From assembly GCA_002923315.1 (NCBI GenBank), contig BEHM01000015.1, positions 1 through 64,000 of the forward strand: a stretch of DNA of 64,000 nt. Reading direction: 5' to 3'. Below are positions 11,074 to 30,828 of the stretch, piece by piece. Below the pieces are notes generated by a model. That model worked only from the letters and a program-made list of their open reading frames with translations. It was not told where the DNA came from and searched no databases. The position numbers and the translations under genes are program-made. Position 1 is the first letter of the stretch, and every line of letters starts with the position of its first letter. This stretch comes from a bacterium HR10 (GTDB lineage: Bacteria; Acidobacteriota; Blastocatellia; HR10).

Positions 11074-11760
11074 TCATCCCGTGGCCAGGCGGTCCCAATC
11101 CTTCCGCTCAAGAAGTCGAACCATGAGGGAATGGAGGCCGAGGACCAAGAGAACAGCGATCCCATGACCAACCACGATGAAGGACCACCGTTCGGAGAGC
11201 CGGGCGAGCGGCATGAGCTCGTTGGGATAAAAGAACACCAGAAACACGCCACTGTACCAGATCACGACGATGATGATCCCCGCGAGGCGATAATCGAGCC
11301 AGAGATATAAGAACAGCGCCAACTGCGTCAAAAGCACCATCACAATGGGAATCCACCTCGCGAGGGCAGTTCCAAATGACCCGAGCACGCCCATCTCGTG
11401 ATCCTCTTGCAACGAGAGCACCAGCGACCGAGCGACGACGACCACCGCCCCGAAGAGCAACAGCATGCTGAGCGCGACCACCTCCTTCGCGATGGCAAGA
11501 TGATGTGCGCTCAGCGGAAGGAGCCGAAGCAAGAACAATGTGCGCTTGGCCTTCTCCATCCCGACGAGCCAGTACGCGATGAGCATTGGGAAGAGGAACG
11601 CCACGGGAAGCAGAGCCAGCGAGAGCGCAGGGACGACTCCACCGGGTCCCAGGAGAAGAGGCAGAAGCTGAGATACTGCGATCACCACCAGGACGCCTAG
11701 CAGATGGGTCGCATGCTCTCGGAAGTCCTTCTTCACCAATGCCCAGATGGATGCCCTCAC
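11074..11760 (-). CDS. ABC transporter permease subunit (ABC-2 type)
   Basis: A 228-residue hydrophobic protein with about six membrane segments, for example LLGVLVVIAVSQLLPLLL, FLFPMLIAYWLVG, LFGAVVVVARSLV and IIIVVIWYSGVFLVFFY. It pairs with the ATPase encoded upstream: its ATG overlaps the ATPase stop by four bases, so the two form one exporter. The charged segment MEKAKRTLFLLRLLPLS between early helices is typical of ABC-2 permeases that act with a CcmA-like ATPase. The substrate is unknown. Confidence 0.82.
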   Translation of the reverse strand: MRASIWALVKKDFREHATHLLGVLVVIAVSQLLPLLLGPGGVVPALSLALLPVAFLFPMLIAYWLVGMEKAKRTLFLLRLLPLSAHHLAIAKEVVALSMLLLFGAVVVVARSLVLSLQEDHEMGVLGSFGTALARWIPIVMVLLTQLALFLYLWLDYRLAGIIIVVIWYSGVFLVFFYPNELMPLARLSERWSFIVVGHGIAVLLVLGLHSLMVRLLERKDWDRLATG

Positions 11761-12620
11761 GCCAGCCCCAGGAACAGCTCATGCAAGGTCGGCGCCCGCA
11801 CGTCGAGGACGGCGATCCCGCGAGCGGTCAACTCAGCGACAAGTCCTTCTGATTCCTGACGGCGACAGAGAAGACGCACCGAACCGTCGCGCCCTCGAAT
11901 CACAGGAAAGGCACTCCATTGCTGAGCGCTCGTCCAGGAGGCCACGGACAGAATCCTCCACTCCCTCTCCAGGTCACCCAAAGACGCATGCACCACCACT
12001 TCGCCATGACGAATGATCACAATCTCGTCAGCTACAGCCACAACATCTTCAAGGATATGCGAGCTGATTAAAACCGCTCGTCCTGCTTCGGGAGCGATCG
12101 CGTCCTCCCGCAGCCACTGCAAAAAGTCGGCCCGCGCGATCGGATCGAGCCCTGCCATGGGCTCGTCCAGAAGGAGCAAGATAGGCCGATGCGCCAACGC
12201 GGCGATCAATGCGAGTCCGACCCGCATGCCATGCGAGAGCTCGCGGATTTGCTTATGGGGATCGAGACGAAAGCGTTCAAGGAGCTGCTGACAATATGCG
12301 TCATCCCAGGTCGGATAGTGAGCAGCGATGAATCTCAGGAACTGTTCGACGCGCATCCAGTCGTACAACGGATGCGATTCGGCGACATATCCCACCGATC
12401 GTCGCCACGCCACCTCACCATACTCCCGCTCGACGCCCTGAAACCGGACGCTCCCCCGATCGCGCGGAATCACTCCGAGGGCGCATTTGATCAACGTCGT
12501 CTTCCCCGCCCCGTTGCGTCCCAAAAGGGCAGTAACGGTCCCCCTTTTGAGGCTCAAGTTCACATCCCTCAGGGTGAACCCAGGATACGACTTCCACAAG
12601 TGCCGAATCTCCAATACCGG
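11757..12620 (-). CDS. ABC transporter ATP-binding protein (CcmA-like)
   Basis: Cytoplasmic ATPase of an ABC-2 exporter. It shows Walker A GRNGAGKTT, a Q-loop region VGYVAESHPLYDW, the signature LSHGMRVGLALIAAL (a variant of LSGGQ), Walker B ILLLLDEPMAGLDP, and the switch His in LISSHILEDV. A C-terminal region of about 70 residues follows, as in the DrrA/NatA group. I take GTG 12620 (PVLEIRHLWKSYPG) because GAGGTG lies about ten bases upstream; GTG 12680 would add 20 residues without support. The permease follows with a four-base overlap. Confidence 0.87.
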   Translation of the reverse strand, partial: PVLEIRHLWKSYPGFTLRDVNLSLKRGTVTALLGRNGAGKTTLIKCALGVIPRDRGSVRFQGVEREYGEVAWRRSVGYVAESHPLYDWMRVEQFLRFIAAHYPTWDDAYCQQLLERFRLDPHKQIRELSHGMRVGLALIAALAHRPILLLLDEPMAGLDPIARADFLQWLREDAIAPEAGRAVLISSHILEDVVAVADEIVIIRHGEVVVHASLGDLEREWRILSVASWTSAQQWSAFPVIRGRDGSVRLLCRRQESEGLVAELTARGIAVLDVRAPTLHELFLGLA

Positions 12621-12777
12621 CACCCTCTCGCCCACCTCACCTTCACGCTCTCTCGTGCGACCTTCGGCTCGAAAGCTCACCGCGCTCGATGAGGAAGCCC
12701 CCTACACATACCCGATGGAGCTCCTTTCTTAGGCGTCCCTCATCGTTCCTCAGTGCCACGCATCACGCCCTCTGCCG

Positions 12778-13509
12778 CTACCGCACGGACTCCACCTCAG
12801 GCGGAGGAGCGAAGAGCGAGAGAGGAAGATCACCTCCCATCGTGACTCTCGTCGTGAGGATCGTGATCTTACTCTCGCGCTCCATGGAAGGAGGCGTTAG
12901 GATCGCCGTGCTCTCGATCTTCCATGGGATCGCATCAGGAATGCCGATCCACAACCGCATGCGCACGTCATACAGACTCAAGACCGCCGCCTCGAACACG
13001 TAACAGGGGATGCGCTCGCCCGTTTTCGTTTCGACATCTTCCTGTCCAAGAAGCACGATCTCGCGAACGATGGGGGCCGTGGGCGGAGTCAAAACCACGG
13101 CGCTTCCCATCGGCACAGGGATAAGGAGCCCAATCCATGAGTCGAACCACAACGGGCGTTGTGCATTCACCGGTCGTTTGTATCCCCGACTTCGCTCCGG
13201 ATATTGGGTGACGTGCCACACCCACTGACCATCGGAAAGGATAAGCTTAGGGAACTCCCCTCGCAGCTCGAACCGGAAGAAATTCGGCCGTTTAAAGGCA
13301 ACCCAAAATTCTCGCTCCGTCCGCCGAATCATCCCCTCATACCGAGTCTCGCTGACGACGAGCCCTTCCAATTGCACTTCGGCGATCTGCTGCCGCCGCG
13401 CTTCGATCTCTTGAATCAGCTTTTCGGGAGTCCCTTGGCCCCAAGCGTGTCCCCAGAGAAATCCGAGCTGGAATATCACAACCCCTACTGCCCTACTTCT
13501 CCGCAACAT
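12778..13509 (-). CDS. Exported LolA-like lipoprotein-sorting protein
   Basis: A 243-residue protein with an N-terminal signal peptide (RRSRAVGVVIFQLGFLWGHAWGQ) and a LolA/LolB-like beta-sheet pattern: VQLEGLVVSETRYEG, FWVAFKRPNFFRFEL, LILSDGQWVWHVTQYP, ETKTGERIPCYVFEA, LWIGIPDAIPWKIES. Proteins of this type sit in the periplasm and bind lipids or lipoproteins. The specific role is not visible. The ATG at 13509 follows GAGAGGAGGGG. Its transcript should begin with a 9-bp stem-loop (13529-13556). Confidence 0.75.
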   Translation of the reverse strand: MLRRSRAVGVVIFQLGFLWGHAWGQGTPEKLIQEIEARRQQIAEVQLEGLVVSETRYEGMIRRTEREFWVAFKRPNFFRFELRGEFPKLILSDGQWVWHVTQYPERSRGYKRPVNAQRPLWFDSWIGLLIPVPMGSAVVLTPPTAPIVREIVLLGQEDVETKTGERIPCYVFEAAVLSLYDVRMRLWIGIPDAIPWKIESTAILTPPSMERESKITILTTRVTMGGDLPLSLFAPPPEVESVR

Positions 13510-13528
13510 AGTCCCCTCCTCTCCGGTG

Positions 13529-13658: not shown

Positions 13659-14201
13659 TCATCTGTTATTATTCGGGCTTTCACACCACTCCTCAGTACA
13701 TTGATCCTGACACCTCTCTAAATCTGAGCGGATACGGCTGCACTCTGCATTGAAAAACACCGAGAAGACAGCAATGGCCGCAGCGATACATCCGGCGATC
13801 GTGAGCAGATTCCCTGCGCTGCAGCAGGCAGCGATTGCGGTGGAAAGACCTGCCCCCACATAGTTCCTCAGCGTCGCATAGGCACTCTCAGCGAACTCAC
13901 GACAGCGACTCAAGCAATTATCAAACCGGATCTGCCTTTCTAATTCATCAATCGCGAACTCGCAAGACACATATAAGGTAGAGACATCGCAATCGAAAAG
14001 ACCAGGATCGAGTCCTGACTCAGAACACACTTCTTCCGAACGAACGATAATCCCACCTTGGGCGTTCGGCGTACGCTTCAGCAGGCTCGCGACACGTTCG
14101 CTTTCGCCTCCTGCTGGAGGGGTTTTTGCCGCGGTAACGTGCGCAGCTATTAGGGCGAGTCCAACAGCCGCCCCTCTGAGAGCTCTCATCCTCCCGGCCA
14201 T
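13659..14201 (-). CDS. Exported Cys-rich protein of unknown function
   Basis: A 180-residue protein that I do not recognise. A signal peptide (RMRALRGAAVGLALIAAHVTAA) is followed by a region with about twelve cysteines: CSESGLDPGLFDCD, VSCEF, CLSRCRE, IAACCSAG, AGCIAAA, AECSRI, ERCQDQCTEEWC. A hydrophobic segment near the centre (LSTAIAACCSAGNLLTIAGCIAAAIAVFSVFF) could cross a membrane. Disulfides outside the cytoplasm are likely. The ATG at 14201 follows GGAGGGCTCACC. Its promoter contains six GACA repeats between the -35 and -10 boxes, so expression may switch. Confidence 0.65.
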   Translation of the reverse strand: MAGRMRALRGAAVGLALIAAHVTAAKTPPAGGESERVASLLKRTPNAQGGIIVRSEEVCSESGLDPGLFDCDVSTLYVSCEFAIDELERQIRFDNCLSRCREFAESAYATLRNYVGAGLSTAIAACCSAGNLLTIAGCIAAAIAVFSVFFNAECSRIRSDLERCQDQCTEEWCESPNNNR

Positions 14202-14245
14202 GGTGAGCCCTCCTCGCCTCAATATCCCACTTCATGGCGGCCTTG

Positions 14246-14278
14246 AGCATAGTGTCTGTCTGTCTGTCTGTCTGTCAA
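14246..14278 (-). promoter_or_regulatory. Candidate phase-variable promoter of the Cys-rich gene
   Basis: TTGACA (14273-14278) and TATGCT (14246-14251) are 21 bases apart, and the spacer is made of GACA units. Losing one 4-base unit would give the optimal 17-base spacing. The transcript would start near 14239, 38 bases before the ATG. Confidence 0.6.
14253..14276 (-). repeat. Tetranucleotide microsatellite, (GACA)6
   Basis: Six perfect tandem GACA units on the minus strand (GTCT/TGTC on the plus strand). The first unit forms part of the -35 box and the rest fill the promoter spacer. Confidence 0.95.
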
Positions 14279-14514
14279 GCCTTTTTTCGCGCGCTCGCGC
14301 GAGGGGTCGGTCGCGCGCCACATGGACCGAAAGAGCCGGCGACCGGCATGGCTCTGGCGGGAATCGAGCACGTGGCGACATGCGGTGGCGAGCAGGGAGG
14401 AATCGCCGCCCTGGTTTGGGAGCTTCTCACTGGGAGACGCGTCGAGTTCGACGATGGCTGTGCTACAGGTTCGGGACGCTCTCCCCCTGCGAGGTGACGC
14501 GCGGCCTTCGCCGC

Positions 14515-15180
14515 CTATGGTGCGTGGGCGTAGGCCGTGGGGTCGAGGATACCGGCTTGCGCGAAGGCCTGCTGGCGCTCGGCGCATTTACTGCACCGAC
14601 CGCAGTGGTGGTGACCGATGGGGGAGATGCAGGAGAAGGTCAAGTCCAGTGGGAGATGACGACCTCGCCGGATGATCTCATGTTTGGAGAGCCCCCGATA
14701 GGGGGCCAGGATCGCGATCGGATGAGCCAGGCCTTGGCTCACCGTCTGCGCCATGAGCGAGAGAAATGAAGGCGTCGCATCGGGAAAGGGATTCCCCTCA
14801 AGCAATCCGATGGCGATGGTCGAGACGCCGCGCAGAGCGCAGAAGACGGCCGCCTTCGCCAAGAGGATGATATTGCGCCCCGGGAGATAGACCGAATCCC
14901 AGGCCGCCTCTCGCTCGGGGACGCCATCTCCGGTCACGCTCCAATGCCCCCCGTAGATGTCCTCCATCGGAAGCGTCATGATGGTGAGCGGCTCAAGTCG
15001 CGCATCGCGCAGGCGATTGAGGAATTGCCGCAACCAATGGAGCTCGACTTCCTCCCATTGAAGCCCGCTCCGAACATAGACCGGAAAGACGCGCGCGTAC
15101 CGCGGCAGCAGCTCCGCGACGAGGACCGCGCTATCCAGTCCCCCGCTGGTGAGGACGCACACAGCTGCGGATTCGCTCAT
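14515..15180 (-). CDS. queC: 7-cyano-7-deazaguanine (preQ0) synthase
   Basis: ATP-dependent conversion of 7-carboxy-7-deazaguanine to preQ0 in queuosine synthesis. The 221-residue protein has the PP-loop VLTSGGLDSAVL (residues 9-20), the YLPGRN segment, GLLEGNPFPDATPSFL, and four zinc ligands near the C-terminus in the spacing C-x8-C-x2-C-x2-C (CISPIGHHHCGRCSKC). The ATG at 15180 follows GGGAG. No queD, queE or queF is nearby; 87 bases separate it from the upstream gyrB, whose transcript may continue into it. Confidence 0.92.
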   Translation of the reverse strand: MSESAAVCVLTSGGLDSAVLVAELLPRYARVFPVYVRSGLQWEEVELHWLRQFLNRLRDARLEPLTIMTLPMEDIYGGHWSVTGDGVPEREAAWDSVYLPGRNIILLAKAAVFCALRGVSTIAIGLLEGNPFPDATPSFLSLMAQTVSQGLAHPIAILAPYRGLSKHEIIRRGRHLPLDLTFSCISPIGHHHCGRCSKCAERQQAFAQAGILDPTAYAHAP

Positions 15181-29941: not shown

Positions 29942-30556
29942 TCAGGGACGGCGTTGAGCAAGAGCAGCCATCAGCTCAGTGTGGCGCCGATCCATCTCGC
30001 GGAGATAGGTGAGCAGCTCCTCGTGCCGCCGCTCGCCGTCTTCATGAATGGTGCGCATCGTCTCGTGAATCGCCCGTATCGTCTCTTGAGTCGCCCACAT
30101 CATCTCCTGAAGCGCCCGCGTGGTCTCTTGATTCCCCCGCATCATCTCCTGGATCGCTCGCGTTGTCTCCTGATTCGCTTGCATCGTCCCCTGAAGCGCG
30201 CGGATCGCCTCCTGATTCCCTCGCATCATCTCCTGGATCGCCCGCGTCGTCTCCTGACTCGCTTGCATCGTCCCCTGAAGCGCGCGGATCGTCTCCTGGG
30301 TCCCCCGCATCATCTCCTGGATCGCTCGCGTCGTCTCCTGATTCGCTTGCATCGTCACCTGAAGCGCGCGGATCGTCTCCTGGGTCCCTCGCATCATCTC
30401 CTGGATCGCTCGCGTTGTCTCGTGCGCGGCCTGAACGTCCTGGCGAATGGACTCAATGAGCGCCCGCGTGGCCCGCCCATTGTAAAACACCCCGTACAGC
30501 GTCAGTGCCAGCCCTAAAGCCGACGCCATCACCCCGGCCAGTCCGACAAGCTCCAT
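29942..30556 (-). CDS. Membrane-anchored repetitive coiled-coil protein
   Basis: A 204-residue protein of unknown function. Residues 1-25 form one membrane helix (VGLAGVMASALGLALTLYGVF). Residues 44-169 are nine 14-residue units alternating between two types, QETTRAIQEMMRG and QETIRALQGTMQA, which gives two heptads per unit with I/L/M at the a/d positions, so a long rod-like coiled coil is expected. The C-terminus is charged (EDGERRHEELLTYLREMDRRHTEL). The ATG at 30556 follows GGGGGG. DNA repeats of 42 bp encode the units, so length may vary between strains. Confidence 0.75.
   Translation of the reverse strand: MELVGLAGVMASALGLALTLYGVFYNGRATRALIESIRQDVQAAHETTRAIQEMMRGTQETIRALQVTMQANQETTRAIQEMMRGTQETIRALQGTMQASQETTRAIQEMMRGNQEAIRALQGTMQANQETTRAIQEMMRGNQETTRALQEMMWATQETIRAIHETMRTIHEDGERRHEELLTYLREMDRRHTELMAALAQRRP
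30050..30427 (-). repeat. Nine tandem 42-bp units (84-bp higher-order pairs) within the coiled-coil gene
   Basis: The units encode 14 residues each. A-type and B-type units alternate, so the DNA repeats most exactly with an 84-base period. Neighbouring copies differ by few bases, suggesting recent duplication or homogenisation. Confidence 0.9.
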
Positions 30557-30576
30557 CGTGTCCCCCCTCTGCCGCC

Positions 30577-30606
30577 ATGCTAGAAGGGAATCGGCCTCGT
30601 CGTCAA
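30577..30606 (-). promoter_or_regulatory. Promoter of the coiled-coil gene
   Basis: TTGACG (30601-30606), 18 bases, TAGCAT (30577-30582); short leader of about 14 bases holding the G-rich ribosome-binding site. Confidence 0.6.
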
Positions 30607-30828
30607 GCGGCGTGTCTGTCGTCACAAGGCCGCTGGGAGCCGGAGAAGGCTCGCGGATTCACCCGCCTTTGGGGAAACCGCTTCCGTAGAAGCGTCGGGA
30701 TCGCTGGGTGCGAGAGGGGGAGTTGGGCACCGACTAAAGGGACCACTTGTGGCGTCTCCGATGATCTGCTCGCTGGTGGTCGAGATCTCACCTCGATATT
30801 CCGGAAGCCCCCCGTCGCACGCGGAGAA

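Follow-up and report, generated by a model that had tools for sequence, protein, structure and literature searches.

Phase variation through repeat tracts in promoter spacers is known mainly from pathogens; work on it has concerned host-associated bacteria, in which immune pressure is given as its explanation. In Neisseria meningitidis the porA, fetA and opc promoters carry a homopolymer between the -35 and -10 boxes (PMC2791445), while each vlp gene of Mycoplasma hyorhinis has a poly-A tract in its promoter and a dinucleotide repeat is located in the spacer of the M. mycoides vmm promoter (PMC10502178). Repeats outside the spacer have also been described: the (TAAA)n tract of N. meningitidis nadA is situated ahead of the core promoter, with NadR and IHF mediating its effect (PMC2791445), and Helicobacter pylori sabA possesses a T-tract rheostat adjoining its -35 box (PMC4081817).

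The locus described here was found in a window of 64 kb (the whole stretch of DNA analysed) from bacterium HR10, and belongs to a family of promoters in which GACA repeats form the spacer. As in porA, fetA and opc, the repeat tract is located in the spacer, changes in unit number shift the -35/-10 spacing and the products are exported or surface proteins; the meningococcal tracts, however, are of a single base, change in steps of 1 and serve a few unlinked genes of a pathogen, whereas the GACA family has a tetranucleotide, changes in steps of 4 and comprises 16 sites with one common repeat. With vlp and vmm it shares a multigene set of exported proteins in which each promoter has its own repeat, that of vmm being within the spacer, but those genes specify surface lipoproteins of host-dwelling mycoplasmas, whereas the GACA promoters precede many unrelated Cys-rich proteins at dispersed places in the genome of an uncultured bacterium of Blastocatellia type. 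The nadA promoter is comparable in having a tetranucleotide repeat in the promoter region and a multi-level output, and differs in that its tract is not the -35/-10 spacer, while sabA is comparable in its promoter-proximal repeat, its graded output and a design common to several genes, and differs in that the tract is beside the -35 box and not between the boxes. By this comparison the GACA design appears to work like the known variable spacer tracts, and would be expected to switch transcription in a similar manner; it differs from them in its 4-base unit, the number of loci, the class of gene and the organism. Among the papers searched, none joins Blastocatellia and phase variation.

The promoter at the window locus

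The minus strand from 14278 to 14246 reads TTGACA, GACAGACAGACAGACAGACA, C and TATGCT, with a gap of 21 bases between the two boxes, in the context aaaaaaggc-TTGACA-GACAGACAGACAGACAGACA-C-TATGCT-caaggccgcca, and the promoter is situated between queC (14515-15180) and an orphan gene for a Cys-rich protein (Table 1). The first-pass annotation had described the two boxes as 21 bases apart, with a spacer built of GACA and a -35 box using the first unit, which is borne out by direct reading and by Tandem Repeats Finder (14253-14276, period 4, 6.0 copies, 100% match). The array is the sole tetranucleotide array of this type within the window, for which a window dinucleotide model gives a chance expectation for (GACA)6 of about 2e-10. 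A coding role for the repeat was considered and rejected, the open frames across it being mechanical only. The ATG is located 45 bases past the promoter and is preceded by AGGAGG.

Table 1. Features of the GACA promoter locus and the genes behind it, in positions of the window.
Feature	Position	Strand	Remarks
Class-specific upstream block, here AAAAAAGGC	14279..14287	-	Family consensus AAANGGGC; adjoins the -35 box
TTGACA, -35-like box	14273..14278	-	Its GACA is repeat unit 1
(GACA)6 microsatellite	14253..14276	-	Fills the promoter spacer; 15 sister sites in own genome
TATGCT, -10-like box	14246..14251	-	Sisters mostly TATAAT or TATACT
AGGAGG, ribosome-binding site	14209..14214	-	
Exported Cys-rich orphan protein, 180 aa, 12 Cys	13659..14201	-	ATG 14201, stop 13659
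Possible operon gene: exported protein, weak LolA-like match	12778..13527	-	E 0.0043, below Pfam cut-off
Possible operon gene: ABC transporter ATPase	11757..12680	-	PF00005, 6.9e-26
Possible operon gene: hydrophobic ABC-permease-like protein	11074..11760	-	Assigned from sequence and position only

The protein encoded directly behind the promoter has a hydrophobic N-terminus, and neither a Pfam hit nor anything above the cut-off in NCBIfam was obtained for it, in agreement with its earlier description as exported, Cys-rich and unknown. A single-sequence AlphaFold model predicts its C-terminal part to be helical (pLDDT about 75-85 there), and a fold search of the PDB returned no relative at E<=0.001.

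A family of GACA promoters

The genome of the window's organism (3.13 Mb, 118 contigs; here G000) was searched first with the locus DNA and then with patterns. The former matched four further places, each exactly at the repeat, while the search for GACAGACAGACA yielded 14 distinct sites with arrays of at least 3 units, all 14 of which share one promoter layout, AAANGGGC-TTGACA-(GACA)n-G-TATAMT-nnnGGCC-RBS-ATG; the -10 box is TATAMT or TATGCT, and the exceptions are one site with TTGGCA and one cut by a contig end. A looser search, allowing fewer units and an imperfect -35 box, added C12:19233 (TTAACA, n=3) and C22:24143 (n=2), bringing the family to 16 sites. The repeat tract is located between the -35 and -10 boxes, as in the known promoter-spacer contingency loci. 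Exact TTGACA is present in 27 of 30 readable family sites, and among 31 aligned sites the upstream block has G at -3 in 30, C at -1 in 28 and A at -8 in 24, with GGCC common shortly past the -10 box. In 228 kb of own sequence, a sample chosen around GACA sites, all six perfect tetranucleotide arrays of at least 4 units are GACA.

A chance origin of the arrays was rejected, as only about 0.2 arrays of (GACA)3 or longer would be expected in 3.13 Mb, compared to the 14 found. It is similarly very hard to credit that the family represents an artefact of assembly or coincidence: the genomes are metagenome-derived and contig C59 terminates within its array, but ordinary reads are long enough to cross arrays of 24-38 bases and the identical design recurs in six separate genomes. 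The end of C59 within a GACA array (L089, position 10970) is what a long array, or one of variable length in the source population, would lead us to expect.

Four congeners of HR10 and one confamilial genome were found to carry the motif at 1-10 sites each, among them Bacterium HR08 (BEHK01; G004) and an uncultured Blastocatellia bacterium (CALHAI01; G002), while the motif was absent from the 156 further genomes of the class that were searched. Across the 162 genomes of the class, GACA promoters were found only in the window's own family, where they occur in two genera, that of Bacterium HR08 and a neighbouring one. A wider distribution was considered and rejected, as a search of about 85,000 species genomes returned, outside the clade, mainly ordinary 17-base promoters that start with GACAGACA by chance; four matches in IMG/VR were judged to be chance. 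One class member, at L178:3133 (G001:C23:464632, minus strand), has a (GA)n instead of a (GACA)n spacer, TTGACAGAGAGAGAGAGAGTATACT, with a gap of 13.

Three contigs of gut Clostridia metagenome-assembled genomes (L111, L122 and L145) share a flank; one of them has TTGACAGACAGACAGACAGCCTTTATAAT (gap 17) while the other two have TTGACAGACAGACAGACTTTATAAT (gap 13), which constitutes an independent four-base change in a GACA-containing putative promoter spacer.

Spacer length and the proposed switch

Exact TTGACA/TATAMT pairs at 0-28 bases were surveyed in the six genomes (113 pairs). Ordinary pairs, which lack a GACA array, have a gap of 15-18 in 84 of 89 cases, as compared to 0 of 24 GACA-class pairs (Fisher 5e-20), whose gaps are 5, 9, 13, 14, 20, 21 and 25; within this clade, therefore, gap length is of consequence, and the GACA class deviates from the rule, mostly in 4-base steps. 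When looser sites are included, 31 members are measurable, with gaps of 5 (4 sites), 9 (12), 13 (6), 14, 20, 21 (4), 25 (2) and 33. Both boxes of a sigma-70-type promoter are thus present in the class, but not 16-18 bases apart.

We favour the reading, with a probability of roughly two in three, that these sites represent a multi-locus family of slippage-tuned microsatellite-spacer promoters. Each consists of (GACA)n between a perfect or near-perfect TTGACA and TATAMT, and the protein encoded behind it is small, exported and usually Cys-rich. As the array keeps a fixed register with the -10 box, the gap equals 4(n-1)+1, and is 13 for n=4, 17 for n=5 and 21 for n=6. Replication slippage would alter n and with it the fit of the promoter to the housekeeping sigma factor, each locus thereby acting as an independent ON/OFF or graded (contingency) switch. 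Transcription would proceed from the two boxes, gap length would set its output and switching within a population would be reversible. Alleles with n<=4 are predicted to be OFF and n=5 to give the maximum, while n>=6 may be weakly ON owing to an in-repeat CAGACA, which matches 4/6 of the -35 box and is located 17 bases from the -10 box. For the window allele (n=6), a single slip would suffice to reach the maximum.

The first-pass annotation had proposed that slippage by one unit would set the ideal spacing of 17, and the geometry holds, as the window array minus one GACA unit gives a gap of exactly 17; the ideal itself, by contrast, is not represented, none of the 31 measurable sites, which come from six genomes each of a different species, having a gap of 17, or of anything from 15 to 18. 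The absence of the predicted ON form (n=5), that is, of the optimal-spacing allele (about 17 bases) of contingency loci, is the main weakness of the slippage switch, and would mean either that full ON is an uncommon or counter-selected state, or that spacing is read in a less simple way. Smooth interpolation predicts only about three 17-base sites, and for this reason the gap in the distribution is striking, yet suggestive at most; it nevertheless provides a sharp test of whether spacing matters. Also counting against a slippage switch, arrays of n=2-3, which should slip rarely, are the commonest while retaining both boxes, and some headed copies are frameshifted or truncated.

In addition, a plain sigma-70 switch has no need of the conserved AAANGGGC upstream and GGCC downstream, and these blocks hint at a dedicated regulator. 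The chief rival explanation is a regulon under a dedicated regulator or sigma factor that binds AAANGGGC-TTGACA(GACA), for which TATAMT would be activator-dependent and array length would be slippage noise or fine tuning. Such a regulon would account for the class-specific blocks on both sides and for the absence of 17, and also for gaps of 5 and 9 being the commonest, as these are unbridgeable by sigma-70. A GGGC-TTGACA box with a near TATA box, moreover, was found almost only with GACA arrays. When class members lacking the repeat were sought by means of the GGGC box, no clear example emerged. Against this, the box stands 5, 9, 13, 21, 25 or 33 bases from the -10 box, distances that fall on all helix faces and that a fixed activator geometry would consequently not tolerate; TTGACA, which ordinary promoters here use at 15-18, matches the -35 consensus of sigma-70 exactly; and the common blocks could partly reflect shared ancestry. 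We regard a dedicated regulon as unlikely.

Change in unit number between species

In favour of slippage-tuned promoters, all four loci for which both flanks identify an orthologue in HR08 differ in gap from the window's genome, with flanks that are 79-95% identical: 21 in the window's genome as compared to 20 in HR08 at C2, 14 as compared to 21 at C14, 9 as compared to 5 at C12:22141 and 5 as compared to 9 at C22. At two further loci only the downstream side is homologous, and the gap there changes from 9 to 33 in one and is the same (9/9) in the other, while six ordinary promoters recognisable in both genomes have kept their gaps. At the locus adjacent to mraZ-rsmH the gap is 21, 20, 5 and 5 across four species within conserved surrounding sequence. 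Units have thus been gained and lost between orthologues, and the sister loci combine tract-length variation with conserved flanks between species, all of these comparisons being at species level with one genome per species.

The window locus has no orthologue among the relatives, and the stretch is absent from HR08. A count of repeat units in related genomes, for which the first-pass annotation had called, accordingly covers sister loci, where the number differs. As for the original proposal of a phase-variable promoter, the promoter-like site ahead of an exported Cys-rich orphan, the evolutionary instability of array length at sister loci and the recurrence of the design across the genome are in its favour, while transcription and reversible switching are what we infer.

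Headed proteins and re-use of promoter and signal region

Headed proteins of at least 60 aa (29 in number) were compared with a background of 50 window ORFs, using a crude hydrophobicity rule for the signal call. Signal-like N-termini were found in 25 of the 29 as compared to 5 of the 50, and a Cys content of at least 5% in 20 of the 29 as compared to 1 of the 50. The genes behind GACA promoters encode small exported orphans, most of them Cys-rich, and the Cys-rich ones that were scanned gave no Pfam or NCBIfam hit above cut-off. The products bear some resemblance to Halocin C8-like Cys-rich bacteriocins, but those scanned matched no curated family model of that kind (Pfam, NCBIfam). Ordinary promoters head, among others, genes which we take to resemble those for GroES, ribosomal protein S20 and HU.

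Within the own genome, paralogues are up to 96% identical across a leader and signal region of 102 nt, beyond which they diverge. In the mraZ-rsmH neighbourhood (L080, L097, L179 and L181) one promoter and signal region is followed by mature proteins that differ between species: G000 and G004 have a protein of 106-110 aa, G001 one that is 62.6% identical to the C7-locus product of G000, and G003 a remnant of 51 aa. Some copies have unrelated upstream flanks while being 87-90% identical downstream. Patterns of this kind, including the syntenic promoter and signal region that G000 and G001 each place before a different mature protein, would also be produced by a dispersed cassette without regulatory meaning, its promoter and signal-peptide segments being copied around and its arrays varying neutrally. 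However, both boxes are kept almost everywhere in divergent species in which upstream DNA and mature genes differ, and neutral arrays would be predicted outside promoters, where just one 3-unit array was seen (G004:C88:6840); we consider a meaningless cassette quite improbable.

An extension of the favoured slippage-tuned switch, to which we give slightly less than an even chance, is that some 16 independent (GACA)n switches, each controlling a different small exported Cys-rich protein, would form a combinatorial, bet-hedging exoproteome in an uncultured, presumably free-living bacterium, being mostly off-optimal with fully ON alleles kept rare, and re-using promoter and signal cassettes before unrelated mature domains, as at the mraZ locus. 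If true, a genome-wide tetranucleotide-spacer set without sign of a host would direct attention to other pressures, such as rivals, phages, grazers and surface life, and would suggest that Cys-rich exported orphans have a role.

Some minor observations were also made. The headed genes at L082:4363, L083:12095, L086:11450 and L099:13203 look frameshifted or truncated near their start, in some cases with a longer copy in a relative. The array outside the promoter class (L097:6842) consists of TTGACAGACAGACA followed by ATAAAAATAATAAG, ahead of a Cys-poor protein without a signal peptide. Elsewhere in the window, an open frame at 29942-30625 on the minus strand contains an 84/42/21-base tandem repeat at 30037-30421, which encodes a helical heptad-like repeat (QETTRAIQEMMRGTQETIRALQ...) of what is apparently a membrane-anchored coiled coil.
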